A stretch of 37,054 nucleotides of DNA, taken from the IMG/VR virus record IMGVR_UViG_3300049479_000172, positions 1-37,054 of that record. One strand, 5' to 3'. A model generated the notes under the pieces. That model did not search any database and was not told where the DNA came from. It saw only the letters and a list, made by a program, of their open reading frames with translations. Positions within the stretch are counted from its first letter, which is position 1; each line of letters opens with the position of its first letter. The stretch comes from a virus. Positions 1-30,699 of this stretch are shown piece after piece. A program made the translations under genes and the position numbers.

Positions 1-816
1 GAGCGCAAGGCCAACGACAAGGCGAGCAACCTGCCGGCGTTGTCCCTCGAGATCAAGCCCAAGGCTCCGCCTGTGCGGCATGAGGTCGGCGAGGTCCAGT
101 GGCGCAAGCACTACAAGACCGGCGACGACACGGCGCCTCCGACGCTGCGCATGGACTACTACCCGCCAGGTGGGCCGTTCGGTCTTGGGCGCAAGATTGC
201 CTCGGAGTGGGTCTGCGTCGAGCACGAGGAAGGCGGCTTTGCGTGGCGCAAAGCGATGCGGTGGTGGGAGGAGCACGCCGGTTGTCGCCTGCCTGAGAGC
301 GTCGACGACGCGATCGCGTTGCTCGACGAGGGGCACCTGCGTCCGGTCGTCGCGATTGAGACGGAGAAAGAAGGCAAGTGGGATCGCGTCGTCGCCATCC
401 ATCATGGCGAGCGCCGCGAGCCCGGCGACGAGGGCGACTTGACCCCGGTCATGGCCCCATGCTGCAAGGAGACGATCGCGCGGCTTGGGTTCAGACCGAC
501 CGTCGCCAACGGGCCGCACACGCACTTCTGCAACACCTGTGGCGCGTGTCTGATCGAGAACGAGGCGGACCGCGTGTGCGCCGAGCGTCTGGGCGAGATG
601 TGCGCGGCGTGCTCGACACAGGACGCACAGGTTCAGATCACATGGAAGGAAGACAGCCTCGGGCGTCGGCTCTACTTTCTGCAGTGCTCGTCGTGCCTTG
701 GGAACCATCTCGGTTCCAGCAAGTGGCTTGCGCACAGCAGCGAGATCGTGGAAGCCGCGCAGCCCGCGTGGACAACGCCACAGATCTTTTCCTCTGACGA
801 CGATCTTCCCTGGTGA
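1..816 (+). CDS. Phage helicase, C-terminal part (partial at left edge)
   Basis: The reading frame is open from the first base, so this is the last 271 residues of a longer protein; the in-frame TTG at 40 is probably internal. The stretch DYYPPGG...SEWVCVEH followed by a Trp-Trp-Glu-Glu segment resembles the tail end of phage DEAD/DEAH-box (superfamily II) helicases, which carry a conserved 'SEWVCFEH...KA..WW' region after the helicase core. After it comes a Cys-rich part (CC, HTHFCNTCGAC, CAAC, CSSC) that probably binds one or two zinc ions. The helicase motifs themselves would lie outside the window, so unwinding activity is inferred from the C-terminal signature only. It ends 9 bases before the primase gene, in the same direction, consistent with one replication operon. 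Confidence 0.6.
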   Translation, partial: ERKANDKASNLPALSLEIKPKAPPVRHEVGEVQWRKHYKTGDDTAPPTLRMDYYPPGGPFGLGRKIASEWVCVEHEEGGFAWRKAMRWWEEHAGCRLPESVDDAIALLDEGHLRPVVAIETEKEGKWDRVVAIHHGERREPGDEGDLTPVMAPCCKETIARLGFRPTVANGPHTHFCNTCGACLIENEADRVCAERLGEMCAACSTQDAQVQITWKEDSLGRRLYFLQCSSCLGNHLGSSKWLAHSSEIVEAAQPAWTTPQIFSSDDDLPW

Positions 817-6249: not shown

Positions 6250-6537
6250 ATGCGCTGCGCCGCCCTCACCCTGCTCACCCTCGCCGCCTGCGCCAGCCCG
6301 GAGCCCTACGAGCCTCCCGCGCCGTCGGGGCCCGAGGAACCGCTGCCGCCACAGTGCAAGGTGCCTGACGACGTGGGAAACCAGATCCCGCGCACCGATT
6401 TCCCGTCCTACTGCGAAGGCGCCGACGTCGACAACCAATATTGCGCCGGCTACACGGGCCGGTGTCTGGAGTGCCGCTTGATGCGGCCTGACGTCGTGGA
6501 GTGGGTGCTGACGTCGGAGTGCTACGAGTCGGCGTGA
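6250..6537 (+). CDS. Phage-encoded lipoprotein, Cys-rich (95 aa)
   Basis: The N-terminus MRCAALTLLTLAAC is a short signal peptide ending in a lipobox (L11-A12-A13-C14), so the product should be lipidated at Cys14 and anchored in a membrane. A Pro/Glu-rich linker follows, then a compact domain with six cysteines (QCKVPDD, SYCEG, QYCAG, RCLECRL, SECYESA) that could form disulphides outside the cytoplasm. It lies between terminase and portal, an odd place for a host-surface protein. Phage lipoproteins are known to act in superinfection exclusion or as outer-membrane spanins, but neither can be assigned here. The SD is weak. Confidence 0.7.
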   Translation: MRCAALTLLTLAACASPEPYEPPAPSGPEEPLPPQCKVPDDVGNQIPRTDFPSYCEGADVDNQYCAGYTGRCLECRLMRPDVVEWVLTSECYESA

Positions 6538-23682: not shown

Positions 23683-24678
23683 ATGGGTGTCAGCTCGTCC
23701 ACCACCGTCGCAAACTGGATTCTCACCGAGGTCATGTCGCAGGAGGCCCTCGCGCCTCTCCGTGGCAAGACCGGCGTTCTGCTTCAGTTCCTCAATTTCG
23801 CCGACATCTCGGGCCGCTCGTCCAAGGTGCGCAAGATCCGGAAGAAGACCGCGATCGCCGCCGCCGTCGACGACACCGAGGCGCTGGCCTTCTCGACGCC
23901 CGCCACCCTCGGTGTCGCGGCGAATATCAGCATCACGCCGACGACCAAGGTGCAGGGCATCCAGGTCACTACCGACGCCATCGAGCTGTCGCTGCCCGGC
24001 GTCAGCCGCGCGCAGGTGATCGCCGCCATCGAGTCGGGCAACCCAGCCAGCCTCGCCTTCGTCCGCGATGTCATGCTGGAGATCATGGAGGCCCACTACC
24101 TCCGCGCCGAAGAGGACAGCCTCGCCCTCTTCAGCGGCCTGTCGGAGAGCGCCGGCACGACCAACACGTCGCTGAGCTTCGCCACCCTCCTCGACGCGCT
24201 CATGAAGGTGCTGGACAACAACCCGTCGTCGGAAGACCTCGTCTTCGTGCTCGAGGAGCAGGGCATCGCCGATCTCCGCACCCTCGCGGCCTCGGGCTCC
24301 GGCGCGGCGCTGTCGTCCATCTTCACCGGCAACGGTGCGGGTGATGTCAGCTTCTTCAACCACCGCCCCGACGTCTCGCGTATGGGCTTCCGTGGCACCT
24401 TCGCCGGCATCCCGCTCTACGCCGCGAACAAGGCCGTGATGGCGACGGCCAATGCCGGTGTGGACCGCGTCGCGGCCCTCATCGTCGCCGGTCGTGGCGA
24501 GACGGGCACCCCCGGCAGCGTGCGCGGCTTCGCCGAGATGGTCGAGCGCTACGAGCCGTCGTTGGGCTTCCAGTACGACCTCGCCGACGACACCCTCCTC
24601 GCGGTGGGCCGCTCGTGCTGGGCCGTCGGTGAGCACACCGACGAGCACGGCTGCAAGATCATCTACGACCTCGACTGA
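23683..24678 (+). CDS. Major capsid protein (331 aa, HK97-fold expected)
   Basis: MGVSSSTTVANWILTEVMSQ opens an alpha/beta protein with an early basic segment (KVRKIRKKTAIA), a long spine-like helix (ASLAFVRDVMLEIMEAHYLR) and a C-terminal DRVAALIVAGRGETGTPG region, in the pattern of HK97-fold capsid proteins of about 330 residues. It follows the scaffold gene by 29 bases, with TAGGAG before the ATG, and is closed by a strong terminator-like hairpin. The good SD and isolated position suit a highly made protein. Confidence 0.75.
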   Translation: MGVSSSTTVANWILTEVMSQEALAPLRGKTGVLLQFLNFADISGRSSKVRKIRKKTAIAAAVDDTEALAFSTPATLGVAANISITPTTKVQGIQVTTDAIELSLPGVSRAQVIAAIESGNPASLAFVRDVMLEIMEAHYLRAEEDSLALFSGLSESAGTTNTSLSFATLLDALMKVLDNNPSSEDLVFVLEEQGIADLRTLAASGSGAALSSIFTGNGAGDVSFFNHRPDVSRMGFRGTFAGIPLYAANKAVMATANAGVDRVAALIVAGRGETGTPGSVRGFAEMVERYEPSLGFQYDLADDTLLAVGRSCWAVGEHTDEHGCKIIYDLD

Positions 24679-25869: not shown

Positions 25870-26271
25870 ATGAAGTCCACCCACCTCGTCGTCGTGGCCC
25901 TCGGGCTGCTCTTTGCCGCTGGCTTGTCCGCATTCGGCGGGCCAGCGGTCGTCGCTGCTGACGCGTGGCGCGCAAACGCCACCGCCGTCGGCCCGTCCTT
26001 CCCGCTCCATGAGCGCATCACCTGCGACACCACGGCTGGCGGCGTCGAGATCAAGCCCACCGGCTCGTGGCAGCTCGTGTCCTACGAGTGCACGGCCAAG
26101 GGCGCTGTCTCCGTCGGCTACAAGGAAGGCGACGGCGACGCGCTCACCTTCGCCAACGGCGTCGAGTACGCCAGCGGTGACCGCTTCGGCGCCAACGTGC
26201 AGCGCCCTGAGCGATGCATCTCGGCGGGCTCCGTCGTCATCCAGTGCCGCTTCCTGGTGACCGCGCCGTGA
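25870..26271 (+). CDS. Secreted hypothetical protein (133 aa)
   Basis: A typical signal peptide (MKSTHLVVVALGLLFAAGLS, with probable cleavage after AVVAADA) precedes a mature beta-rich domain with four cysteines (ITCDTT, SYECTA, RCISAG, QCRFL), probably two disulphides. It would act in the periplasm or at the cell surface. Its stop overlaps the GTG of the SGNH-hydrolase gene, linking the two. A structural protein with an export signal is unusual for a virion, so it may be an infection-stage surface protein. Confidence 0.55.
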   Translation: MKSTHLVVVALGLLFAAGLSAFGGPAVVAADAWRANATAVGPSFPLHERITCDTTAGGVEIKPTGSWQLVSYECTAKGAVSVGYKEGDGDALTFANGVEYASGDRFGANVQRPERCISAGSVVIQCRFLVTAP

Positions 26272-27983
26272 TCACCCATCTCCGCGCACTGTGGCTTGCG
26301 TGGGGCGCCGTTGTGGCGCTCCTCGCCTATCCGTCGCACGCCCGCGTTCTCGGGCAACAGACGGGCATCATGGGCAGCGACGATGGCGTCTGGCGACCGG
26401 CGACGACCGGCCCCACCGTCATCATCGCCGCCCTGCCCTACGCTCGCACGGTGACGTGCTCGTCGTACACGTTGACCGGCACCGCACCAGGCGCTGGTGC
26501 AGTGACGTGGTCGGCCTCGCCGTCGGGTGCCTCGGGTGCATGCACTGGCACGTCGTCGTGGTCGTGCGTCGTCGACGTCGACCCCGACGCGGTCGGCGAA
26601 GGCGTCGAGACCATCACGGTGGCGCAATCCGGCGCAACGTCGGCGACCGCCACCATCGGATTCTACGTCGAGGGGGAGCACAGCTGCTTTCTGCGGCAGT
26701 CGGTGAACGGGCTTTATAACAGCGGCCTCGTCGACGCTGCGGCCGTGGCGACGTGGGAGAACCTCGGATCCAGCGCCCTCGACATCACGCAGGCGACAGG
26801 CACGGCGCAACCCTCGTTCCGCACGTCGTGTCAGGGCGGCGGGCCGTGTGTGCGCTTCGACGGGACCGACGTGCTCAAGGCGGCGACGGCGTCAGACTGG
26901 ACTTTTCTCAACACCGGCGCCGATGCAACGGTGATGATGGAGGCGCGCACGACGTCGAGCAACCCAAACGCGCTCTTCTATGTGCTCGCGACTGCCGCTG
27001 TTGGCGCGTCGACGACGTCGCGTGGCATCACGCTCTACTACGACGACCGCAGCGGTTCAAGCCGCAATGACTTCGTGGGCTGGGCCATCAGCAAGGGGTC
27101 CGCACCGCTCGCCGTGTCGGTGACGTCGGCGAATGACGATTTCACGTCGGCGACATGGCACATGTGGGCCGCTGTCCTCGACGACGACGGCAGCACCGGA
27201 AACGACGGCTTCCAGTTCGTCGACGGTGCCGCTGTCGGCGCTGCCGCTGCGACCACCTACTCCGCGTCCGCTCCGACGTCAGCGTTGGCGCTCGGCGACG
27301 AAGGCACCGCGCGCACGTTCGCTTTTATCGGCGACGTCGGCGACGTGCTCATCTACTCATCCGCGCTCACCGAAACGCAACGCAACATCAACGACGCCGT
27401 CGCGGCGTGGGCGTCCAGTGGCGACATTGTCGCGTCGACAGAGACGTGGCTCTTTGTTGGCGATAGCCTCACGGCTGGCAGCGGCGGCGTGACGACGTGG
27501 CCCGCGAAGCTTGTTGCCGATGCGCCGTCGACGGTCCACTTCACCAACAGGGCCGCGTCCTCGAACACCAGCGCACAGATCCTCGCGCAATGGCGCGCGG
27601 CTGGCGTGCCGGACAAAATCTTCGTGCTCGGCGGCGTCAACGATATCGCCGTGGGCACGTCGGCGGCGACGGCGCTTACGTCGCTGTCGACGATCTACAG
27701 CGAAGCGTCTGCGCTCGGGGTTCAAGTAATCGCGATGCCGACGTTGCCCTTCGGCAACGCCGCGTCGTGGTCGGCGGCAGACCAGACACAGCTGCTGCTT
27801 CTCGAGGACAGCATCATCGCCGACGCAAACGTCGACGTGCTCGTGAACTTCTATGACCTCATGGGCCAGCCGGGCACACCGGAGGATCTCGCCGCCATCT
27901 ACGACATCGGCGACGGCGTGCATCCCAACGAGGCTGGGACCACCTTCATGGCGGCGGAAGTCGCCACCGCTCTGGGGCTCTGA
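26268..27983 (+). CDS. Secreted LamG-like / SGNH-hydrolase protein (571 aa)
   Basis: Three parts are seen. Residues 1-26 look like a signal peptide. About 120-385 resembles a concanavalin/LamG sandwich (VDAAAVATWENLGSSALDIT, CVRFDGTDVLKAA, then DVGDVLIYSSALTETQRNIN). About 390-571 is an SGNH/GDSL hydrolase: FVGDSLT with Ser400, FVLGGVNDIA with Asn458, and DGVHPNEAG with Asp549 and His552. Such enzymes remove acyl groups from polysaccharides or lipids, so it may modify the host envelope or capsule. GTG 26268 overlaps the previous stop (GTGA). An N-terminal export signal is unusual for a tail-borne depolymerase. Confidence 0.75.
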   Translation: MITHLRALWLAWGAVVALLAYPSHARVLGQQTGIMGSDDGVWRPATTGPTVIIAALPYARTVTCSSYTLTGTAPGAGAVTWSASPSGASGACTGTSSWSCVVDVDPDAVGEGVETITVAQSGATSATATIGFYVEGEHSCFLRQSVNGLYNSGLVDAAAVATWENLGSSALDITQATGTAQPSFRTSCQGGGPCVRFDGTDVLKAATASDWTFLNTGADATVMMEARTTSSNPNALFYVLATAAVGASTTSRGITLYYDDRSGSSRNDFVGWAISKGSAPLAVSVTSANDDFTSATWHMWAAVLDDDGSTGNDGFQFVDGAAVGAAAATTYSASAPTSALALGDEGTARTFAFIGDVGDVLIYSSALTETQRNINDAVAAWASSGDIVASTETWLFVGDSLTAGSGGVTTWPAKLVADAPSTVHFTNRAASSNTSAQILAQWRAAGVPDKIFVLGGVNDIAVGTSAATALTSLSTIYSEASALGVQVIAMPTLPFGNAASWSAADQTQLLLLEDSIIADANVDVLVNFYDLMGQPGTPEDLAAIYDIGDGVHPNEAGTTFMAAEVATALGL

Positions 27984-28333
27984 TGGATCGCCGCACCCTC
28001 GCCGCTCTCGTTCTCGCAGGCCTCGTCGGCGCCGGCGCCCTCACAATCGACGGGCCCGCGCCGCCGCATGTGCCCGGCGAGGCCCGCACGGTGACGCTCA
28101 CGCCGTGCGCGTCGGACTGGTCGGCGTGGGCGCAGGCGTGGTGCCCCGACGATGACGTCCAGTGCATCGACGTCAACGACGACCGGCAGGGGCGCCCCTA
28201 CTGTGTCGACGGCGTCGAGGTGGGACAGTGCGCGTCGACGCCGGCCACACCGTCGCAGGAGGCGAGGGCGCTGCACTTCGGCGTGGCCCTCGACGTGCCG
28301 CCGGGCTGGGAGGCGTGTCCCGATGCGCCCTGA
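27983..28333 (+). CDS. Secreted or membrane-anchored small protein (116 aa)
   Basis: MDRRTLAALVLAGLVGAGAL is a signal peptide or membrane anchor. The mature part has six cysteines in pairs (TPCASDWSAWAQAWCPDDDV, QCIDVND, YCVDG, GQCAS, WEACPD). It overlaps the previous stop (TGATG), and its end overlaps the patatin gene by 11 bases. It belongs to a run of three exported products (25870-28333). No family is recognised. Confidence 0.5.
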   Translation: MDRRTLAALVLAGLVGAGALTIDGPAPPHVPGEARTVTLTPCASDWSAWAQAWCPDDDVQCIDVNDDRQGRPYCVDGVEVGQCASTPATPSQEARALHFGVALDVPPGWEACPDAP

Positions 28334-29195
28334 CGTCTACGGCTCAATCTCCGGCGGCGGACCCGCGATCACCTACCTCGCTGGCGCAGCGGACGCCCTC
28401 GACGCCCGTTGCCGCGTGCTGGGCTGGTCGGGTGCATCGGCGGGCGCCATCGGCGCGACGTGCAAGGCGTTTGGCGTGCCGTCCGAGGTGGTGCTGACGC
28501 TGCTTGTCGACATCCTCGAGTCGGGGCAAGCGTTGACGCCCGGCGCTGGCAACCTGCCGCGCGGCGGGGTCTTTAGCCTCGACGTGATCGGCGACGCCAT
28601 CGACAAGCACATCGGCAAGGGTGCCAAGCTGGGAGACGCAACGTCCGGCCTCGTCGTGTGCGTCACCGACCTCGACAGGGCGCGCCCGGTCTACCTGAGC
28701 AAGGTCGCCACGCCGAAGGTGCTCGTGCGAGAGGCCGTCATCGCGTCGTGCTCGTTCATGTGCGGCGTGACGCCGGCGGCGGTCATCGGGTCGCTGGGGA
28801 CGGCGCTGTCCCCCGACATCCGCCTGTGGGGCGACGGTGGCTTGAGCGACAACACCGTGGATGGCGCATGGGACCACAAGCGCGAGCCCCGCGTGGGCCT
28901 GCGTCTGTCCCGCCACGACGGAGACACCACCGACCCCGACCAGCGGCTCCGTCCTGGTGACGTGCCCGGCATCCTCGCCGCGTTGCCGCGTGCCCTCATG
29001 TGGGGCGCGAGCTGCTGGAAGTCCCGCCGCATGGACGGGTGCGACGTCGAGGTCGACGGGGTCAACGACTGGGCTTTCCGCAAGAACAGCGTCCGCGTCC
29101 ACCGCGAATGGGGCGAGGGCTACGACAGCACCGCCCGGCAGGTGGATGCGTGGCTTGCCCGGCGGGCGCCACAGTGCAAAGGTGGTGAGCCATGA
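28323..29195 (+). CDS. Patatin-like phospholipase (290 aa)
   Basis: The oxyanion-hole glycines GGG (residues 11-13), the nucleophile elbow GASAG with Ser39 and the DGG motif with Asp171 form the complete patatin Ser-Asp dyad in the right order. The family cleaves acyl chains from phospholipids. There is no signal peptide, so the enzyme would act from the cytoplasm on the inner membrane, or reach the outer layers after holin action. It stands between secreted proteins and holin-like genes, which suggests a part in lysis. ATG 28323 is chosen because patatins begin close to the GGG motif; ATGA links it to the next gene. Confidence 0.8.
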   Translation: MRPDVYGSISGGGPAITYLAGAADALDARCRVLGWSGASAGAIGATCKAFGVPSEVVLTLLVDILESGQALTPGAGNLPRGGVFSLDVIGDAIDKHIGKGAKLGDATSGLVVCVTDLDRARPVYLSKVATPKVLVREAVIASCSFMCGVTPAAVIGSLGTALSPDIRLWGDGGLSDNTVDGAWDHKREPRVGLRLSRHDGDTTDPDQRLRPGDVPGILAALPRALMWGASCWKSRRMDGCDVEVDGVNDWAFRKNSVRVHREWGEGYDSTARQVDAWLARRAPQCKGGEP

Positions 29196-29524
29196 CGCTT
29201 GACCTCTCGACCACTCTCGCCGTGCTGTCATTGGTCGGCGTCATCCTTGGCGCCGGGCGGGTCTTCTTCGTCGTCGAGGCCAAGATGGCACAACACGCGA
29301 CCGCAATCACCAAACTGGAAGCCGTCGCCGACGCATTCAACGGGCCGGCCCGCGCGGAGCACATGCGCCTCGTCGGGCGTGTCGACAGCCTTGAAAAGGA
29401 CGTCTCCAAGCTGGCGACGGTGGAACGTGTCGACGCCATCCTTGTCGAGATGCGGCAGGGGTTCGCGCACCTCGCCGACCTCATCGCAGCCGACCGCCGA
29501 CACCGAAAGGACGACGACGCATGA
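29192..29524 (+). CDS. Membrane-anchored coiled-coil protein (110 aa)
   Basis: One transmembrane segment near the N-terminus (TLAVLSLVGVILGAGRVFFV) is followed by a helical, charged cytoplasmic or periplasmic part (ITKLEAVADAFNG, RVDSLEKDVSKLATVERVDA). It resembles small membrane proteins with a coiled coil found near phage holins (XhlA- or DUF2730-like). It overlaps the patatin stop by 4 bases, and its own stop overlaps the next gene. It may be part of the lysis machinery. Confidence 0.6.
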   Translation: MTLDLSTTLAVLSLVGVILGAGRVFFVVEAKMAQHATAITKLEAVADAFNGPARAEHMRLVGRVDSLEKDVSKLATVERVDAILVEMRQGFAHLADLIAADRRHRKDDDA

Positions 29525-29766
29525 CTGACGCCCCCGACCCCACCCACGACGACGGCGGCGCCGTTGGTCGCTTCCTCAGCCGTGTCTTCGGGCGCAGCTA
29601 CCGCACGACCCTTGCCGGCCTCGTCGCCACCGTGGCGCAGGGCGTGGCGCTCGCTCCGGGCGTCGACCCCGCCGTTCAGCATTGGGCGCAGGTGGTTGCC
29701 GGGTTCGCGTCGGGTGCGGGCTTGCTGATCGCGAAGGACAGCCGGGTTTCGGGGCAGCCCCGGTGA
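29521..29766 (+). CDS. Holin-like small membrane protein (81 aa)
   Basis: After a hydrophilic N-terminus there are two moderately hydrophobic segments (TTLAGLVATVAQGVALAPGV and WAQVVAGFASGAGLLIAKDS), ending with the AKDSRVSG motif. The 'GLL.AKD..VSG' end is common in small phage membrane proteins placed beside endolysins and usually named holins. It precedes two small genes and the peptidase at 30106. The holin role is inferred. Confidence 0.6.
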   Translation: MTDAPDPTHDDGGAVGRFLSRVFGRSYRTTLAGLVATVAQGVALAPGVDPAVQHWAQVVAGFASGAGLLIAKDSRVSGQPR

Positions 29767-29936: not shown

Positions 29937-30109
29937 GCAAACCCTACCCCTCCGGCTTCCGCGCCCCACCACAACACCTCACCCGCTGGCGTGTGTCGTT
30001 CGCCGACGGCCACAGCGTCGTCGTCATGGCGACGGACCCCGATGCGGCGCGACGTGCTGGCGCGTTCTTCTCGTTTGGGGCAATCACTGACGTCGAGGTG
30101 GTCTCTTGA
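29933..30109 (+). CDS. Small hypothetical protein (58 aa)
   Basis: MSKPYPSGFRAPPQHLTRWR is followed by RVSFADGHSVVVMATDPDAA and a short helix, giving a compact beta-beta-alpha pattern. It overlaps both neighbours by 4 bases. Its place between the holin-like gene and the peptidase may be accidental. No family is recognised. Confidence 0.5.
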   Translation: MSKPYPSGFRAPPQHLTRWRVSFADGHSVVVMATDPDAARRAGAFFSFGAITDVEVVS

Positions 30110-30699
30110 CCCGCCACGGCTGGCCCGATCCCGGTCGCGTCTTCTGGCAGAACGCCGCCCCATGGGGTCCGCTCCCATACGGTCACGGCGGCAAAACGAT
30201 CGGCCAATGGGGCTGCACCGCTGCCTCTCTCAGCCAAGCGCAGCGCCTCTCGGGCGTGCGGGCCGGTGCGACCCCCGGCACCGTGGTCGCCGACGCTCTG
30301 CGGGCGTCTCCGGCGGTTTGGCAGCCTGGTTCGTCGCTGGCGGTCCTGCCGCACCTCGCGCGCAGTGCCTACTTCCAGTGCCCCGACACGGAAGAGGCGT
30401 GGGACGTCAGGCGGGGCATGACGGTCCGGCAGATGTCGATCGCCATCTGCGACGCCATCGACCGCCACGGGCTGGCTCCGCGCCACGGTTTCGGGTGGCT
30501 GCATGTCGACTACACCGGCGACGACGTGGGCGAGCATTGGATCTTGGCCTACGCCTACGACGACGACGTGATCTATTGCACGGACAGCGCGCCGGCCAAG
30601 GTTGTGGAACTTGACCGGCGCACGCTGAAGGGCCGCGCGAAGTGGGGCGCCATGTGGAAGGACTACACCGTCGTCAGAGGGTATCCGTTGACGGTGTGA
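30106..30699 (+). CDS. C39-like cysteine peptidase, probable endolysin (197 aa)
   Basis: The N-terminal motif TIGQWGCTAASLSQAQRL gives the oxyanion Gln34 and nucleophile Cys37; GEHWILAYAYDDD supplies His144 and YCTDSAP supplies Asp160, matching the C39-like/papain-fold triad order. It has no signal peptide, so it would need a holin to reach the cell wall. Start TTG 30106 overlaps the previous stop (TTGA). As the last gene of the rightward late cluster, behind the holin-like gene, it is probably the peptidoglycan-cleaving endolysin, although a role as a virion or injection peptidase cannot be ruled out. Confidence 0.65.
   Translation: MTRHGWPDPGRVFWQNAAPWGPLPYGHGGKTIGQWGCTAASLSQAQRLSGVRAGATPGTVVADALRASPAVWQPGSSLAVLPHLARSAYFQCPDTEEAWDVRRGMTVRQMSIAICDAIDRHGLAPRHGFGWLHVDYTGDDVGEHWILAYAYDDDVIYCTDSAPAKVVELDRRTLKGRAKWGAMWKDYTVVRGYPLTV

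Follow-up and report, generated by a model that had tools for sequence, protein, structure and literature searches.

The patatin-like gene of an uncultivated tailed phage may encode a cytoplasmic lipid acyl hydrolase that is an accessory member of the lysis block, is translationally coupled to a membrane coiled-coil protein and helps to break down envelope lipids at lysis. We favour this reading tentatively. Membership of the patatin in the lysis block, alongside a transmembrane (TM) coiled-coil protein, a small TM protein and a C39-like peptidase, is itself well supported. The window (the whole stretch of DNA analysed, an IMG/VR record of 37,054 bases) includes terminase, primase-polymerase, minor head, tail and capsid-type genes. 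The relevant features are as follows.

26268–27983, plus strand: signal-peptide-like protein ending in a GDSL esterase domain (PF13472, E = 1.3e-17)
27983–28333, plus strand: Cys-rich small protein, secreted or anchored, with an N-terminal hydrophobic segment and homologues in L002, L003, L025 and L060
28323–29195, plus strand: patatin-like acyl hydrolase gene (PF01734), 290 aa, ATG to TGA
29192–29524, plus strand: N-terminal TM and coiled-coil protein, holin-, releasin- or i-spanin-like, 110 aa, TM window 10–28
29521–29766, plus strand: small membrane protein, holin-like, 81 aa, hydrophobic segment 29–45, position conserved
30106–30699, plus strand: probable endolysin of 197 aa, a cysteine peptidase of C39-like papain fold carrying Q15, C37, H144 and D160

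The reading frame at 28323–29195 matches the Pfam Patatin profile PF01734 over residues 8–178 (E = 1.5e-13; 51.9 bits, where the gathering score is 27.7), and the more distant patatins of L030 (50.0 bits) and L037 (55.6 bits) also lie above the gathering score. The putative nucleophile motif GxSxG is present as G37-A-S-A-G41 (GASAG) containing S39. Both S39 and D171 of the DGG motif are unchanged in a 12-row alignment, and also in L030 and L037, while the glycine loop G11–G13 (GGG) is invariant among the aligned members. The original prediction of an intact patatin-like reading frame is borne out as a predicted domain. Among pairs whose dS lies under about 0.6, where synonymous sites are unsaturated, dN/dS is 0.08–0.28, so the frame is judged from its substitutions to encode a real protein under purifying selection and is no chance ORF. 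No signal peptide is seen on the protein. It differs from the Pfam family in a C-terminal region of about 110 residues beyond the domain.

Sequence searches with the patatin gave no relative in INPHARED, none among cultured phages and plasmids, and nothing real in the PDB. An AF2 model with 12 near relatives as input had a pLDDT of 37, and was left out of the fold search. Two further identities were considered and rejected. For a defence effector (CBASS-type and others) no PADLOC model matched at E up to 1, and a partial NCBIfam match to VpdC, scoring 15 against a cut-off of 1000 bits, is taken as generic patatin similarity.

The Gly-rich oxyanion motif of the patatin family has the consensus GGGxR/KG. 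All members of the window's patatin group share the motif I reading SGGGPAITYLAG, and the R/K and the next G of the consensus are missing. It had been predicted that GGG, GASAG and DGG are all kept, which is correct, but the missing R/K of motif I went unmentioned. The altered motif, GGGPAIT in every member against DGGGIRG in the patatin of phage WO, could denote a fold that is catalytically weak or that has been repurposed, for example as a regulator of the TM partner. We think this unlikely, as S39, D171, the GGG loop and the stretch ASxSFMCG(V/I)xPA are invariant among the members, and would be unneeded in an inactive protein. For this motif a review (PMC12871566) asks for no more than a Gly-rich region.

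At its 3′ end the patatin gene passes directly into the TM coiled-coil gene. The patatin stop codon overlaps the start of 29192–29524, by 4 nt, so that the two are probably translationally coupled. This overlap had been predicted, as had the holin-like and peptidase genes nearby, and all are found. The TM coiled-coil protein matches the holin family phrog_1296 weakly (E = 1.3e-4), and the small membrane protein that follows matches phrog_24719 (E = 3e-4), a PHROG of unknown function. The former could be a holin, could be i-spanin-like or could resemble the releasin Mu gp25. It has in common with Mu gp25 releasin/DUF2730 and with i-spanins a size of about 100 aa, a single N-terminal TM segment and a lysis neighbourhood, and the versions occupying this slot in L025 and L031 match Rz-like spanin PHROGs weakly (1.3e-4 and 7.9e-4 respectively). 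It differs from these in having no DUF2730 match, no o-spanin partner and a neighbouring peptidase with no visible SAR domain. Mu gp25 has an N-out/C-in topology (PMC9239132); charges flanking the TM segment leave the topology of the window's protein unsettled.

The peptidase at 30106–30699 is most likely a phage endolysin, with peptidoglycan as its probable substrate. Its residues Q15, C37, H144 and D160 are invariant in a 19-member alignment at 26–94% identity. The AF2 model (pLDDT 89, pTM 0.88) has as its best solved Foldseek matches the C39 domains of PCAT1 and ComA, and also staphopain, with a probability of 1.00 but E about 6e-3 (5.6e-3), and among its best viral matches are a siphovirus peptidase and a cyanophage endolysin. 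The window's own protein has no Pfam match; a weak one was obtained for the L030 homologue only. The corresponding peptidase of L002 (9748–10326) keeps the active-site residues, yet is only 37% identical to that of the window compared with about 89–95% for the patatin and membrane genes, so the endolysin slot has been exchanged or is evolving very fast.

On the 5′ side the gene for the Cys-rich protein overlaps the start of the patatin by 11 nt. It is the last of three genes in a row, beginning at 25870, 26268 and 27983 (spanning 25870–28333), that have N-terminal signal-like segments; the three phage-encoded proteins are apparently exported, and several relatives have them too. The homologues of 26268–27983 in L030, L039 and L060 stop before the GDSL part, as judged by length, so this enzyme domain comes and goes between relatives.

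Comparison of related phages shows that the connection to the TM coiled-coil gene is constant while much else changes. In all nine of the patatin-plus loci checked the patatin lies directly 5′ of, and overlaps, this gene, by 4 nt in eight of them and by 11 nt in L030. Its upstream neighbour is of three kinds, namely the Cys-rich signal-peptide protein (window, L002, L003 and L030), an 86-aa TM protein (L004-type) or a gene linked to the MCP/capsid (L037). The TM coiled-coil genes of the window type and the L004 type are not alignable beyond their topology, and the slot is filled in all relatives whose cassette was read. A pair comprising a metallophosphatase and an 80–86-aa membrane protein (5174–5944 in L004, 10831–11628 in L042) occurs in two positions: L004-type phages have it ahead of the lysis block, and patatin-minus phages, L042–L044 among them, have it behind the C39 gene. 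The patatin thus stays with the TM coiled-coil, TM and C39 genes under changed gene order.

This constant association also bears upon a role in the virion. The patatin could be a tail- or capsid-associated lipase acting at entry, given that a structural gene cluster lies just upstream and that in L037 the gene directly follows MCP-linked genes. We regard this as very unlikely. The patatin is always coupled to the lysis block, has no PHROG match, and is missing from relatives with closely similar capsids. The window's capsid-like gene (23683–24678) comes after the tail genes, an unusual genome order; there is a group of about 35 related IMG/VR contigs, for which tblastn gave no cultured relative.

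Sixteen contigs carry the patatin, the window included, and scans with capsid and peptidase gave a further 16 with the peptidase in which a profile search found no patatin. The gene tables examined were those of the patatin-minus phages L025, L060, L039, L041, L042, L043, L044, L048, L055, L057 and L031. In these the TM coiled-coil/TM/C39 block is intact and the place of the patatin is empty. The gene is missing from about half of the relatives whose cassette is intact, which argues that it is dispensable for lysis in the group and, like the altered motif I, counts against the favoured reading. From this distribution the patatin is classed as an accessory gene. When its presence is placed on the capsid tree three changes result, at least two of which are forced by starred branches, and on this tree the gene has been gained or lost at least twice. 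Among the patatin-minus relatives read, L025 (2153–2509) and L060 (7648–8004), and only these, have an extra gene immediately 5′ of the Cys-rich one; its product is a small lipoprotein containing the HExxH-like motif VHEGAH and is possibly a secreted metallopeptidase.

Patchiness of this kind, the outcome of two or more gains or losses, is like that of accessory cargo, and would fit a late enzyme unrelated to lysis that remodels or digests host membrane lipids (for fatty-acid supply, exclusion of competitors or an effect on the host's surroundings), the lysis block being simply a permissive late site. Other optional and apparently secreted enzymes lie upstream, such as the GDSL protein, and a megaphage patatin (PMC9723777) and Arctic lake patatins (PMC9469726) were called auxiliary genes by their authors. 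Against this, the overlap with the TM coiled-coil gene occurs in every context examined, and the patatin was not seen elsewhere in these genomes. We consider an enzyme unrelated to lysis to be somewhat improbable, and prefer an accessory role within lysis.

The nearest terminase relatives of the window are spread over phages of Gram-negative hosts and environmental records. INPHARED contains no match for its capsid, tail protein or peptidase, and a search of cellular genome contigs with the patatin and capsid found no carrier. Three relatives of 36.9–37.8 kb, two of them patatin-minus and one patatin-plus, have direct terminal repeats of 116–127 bases, so a length of about 37 kb probably represents a whole genome; the window has no such repeats.

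The distribution of spanins is informative about a more specific role. It had been proposed that the phospholipase could replace spanins, here taken as an obligatory step of outer-membrane disruption, and that its presence might coincide with spanin loss in related phages. This is chemically feasible for a phospholipase, and about 13% of 677 surveyed Gram-negative phage genomes have no recognisable spanin (PMC6139136). Heuristic lipobox scans of ten near-complete genomes (using looser rules, a stricter first pass having given nothing) and of the lysis block of 17 loci in all three forward frames revealed neither an o-spanin nor a u-spanin lipoprotein within this block or close to it, either in patatin-plus or in patatin-minus phages. 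The window has a single o-spanin-like candidate.

6250–6537, plus strand: lone putative lipoprotein with a Pro-rich stretch and the lipobox LAAC

This gene sits between the terminase and portal genes, far from the lysis block, and no match to it was found in 16 related records, in a search that had no positive control. The earlier statement that no spanin pair is seen therefore stands, with this lipoprotein and the Rz-like matches of some TM coiled-coil versions as caveats. Replacement of spanins does not fare as well. Patatin-minus relatives with the same TM coiled-coil/TM/C39 block are equally without an o-spanin and have no substitute gene in the patatin's place, so the patatin does not track spanin loss. 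Within the limits of the heuristic lipobox scan the whole phage group is without recognisable spanins, and the presence of the patatin is uncoupled from their loss. The Pro-rich lipoprotein also counts against an obligatory replacement, which would require a Gram-negative host. We therefore consider it distinctly unlikely that the patatin serves as an obligatory substitute for spanins.

An accessory role in lysis suggests the following sequence of events. A cytoplasmic Ser-Asp enzyme of the patatin family would have become an optional part of the lysis block in a group of uncultivated tailed phages. It is probably made late and translated in step with the TM coiled-coil protein, and the two may act together at the inner membrane. 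Once the holin step has opened or disturbed that membrane, the patatin would hydrolyse envelope phospholipids, those of the inner membrane from within and, after its release, those of the inner leaflet of the outer membrane if the host has one. Cutting of the wall by the C39-like endolysin would come first, and the patatin would then speed the collapse of the envelope.

The closest parallel is with phage WO, for which a patatin lytic cassette with a holin-like N-terminal TM coiled-coil protein alongside has been proposed (PMC9203015, and earlier PMC3173496). In both WO and the window a patatin adjoins a small holin-like protein having an N-terminal TM segment and a C-terminal coiled coil, a role in lysis has been proposed, and there are no canonical spanins. 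The two patatins have no BLAST similarity although both belong to PF01734, and WO has the motif DGGGIRG (containing the canonical GGGIRG) where the window has GGGPAIT. The order of the neighbours is reversed in WO, which in addition has an ankyrin protein; no ankyrin gene is seen in the window's block. Lastly, WO is without a canonical or conserved endolysin, and peptidoglycan is undetected in its endosymbiont host Wolbachia (PMC9203015), while the window has the C39-like peptidase after its patatin block. In INPHARED the WO patatin has its relatives in WO phages and in two huge-phage records. The megaphage patatin was presented as the first in a phage (PMC9723777), a claim that overlooks WO. 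A looser analogy is provided by mycobacteriophage LysB, a lysis-cassette serine hydrolase whose target is a lipid layer of the envelope outside the wall (PMC5707550); it is a mycolyl-arabinogalactan esterase of another family.

The window may thus hold a second, independently assembled patatin lysis cassette, in which a phospholipase translationally coupled to a membrane coiled-coil protein makes up a membrane-disrupting module that can be added to an ordinary holin/endolysin block. This would be an enzymatic way of collapsing the envelope, distinct from both spanin fusion and disruptin peptides. We put this forward as possible but doubtful. The means by which spanin-less phages get through the outer membrane is stated to be an open question that needs experiments (PMC6139136). 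As far as the papers searched show, a lysis role for a patatin was previously proposed for Wolbachia phage WO alone, and neither that phage nor its host is easily manipulated. The window's patatin is unrelated to that of WO, and the phages that have it in their lysis block have sister phages that naturally do without it, so comparing the two sorts of phage offers a simple test of what it contributes.
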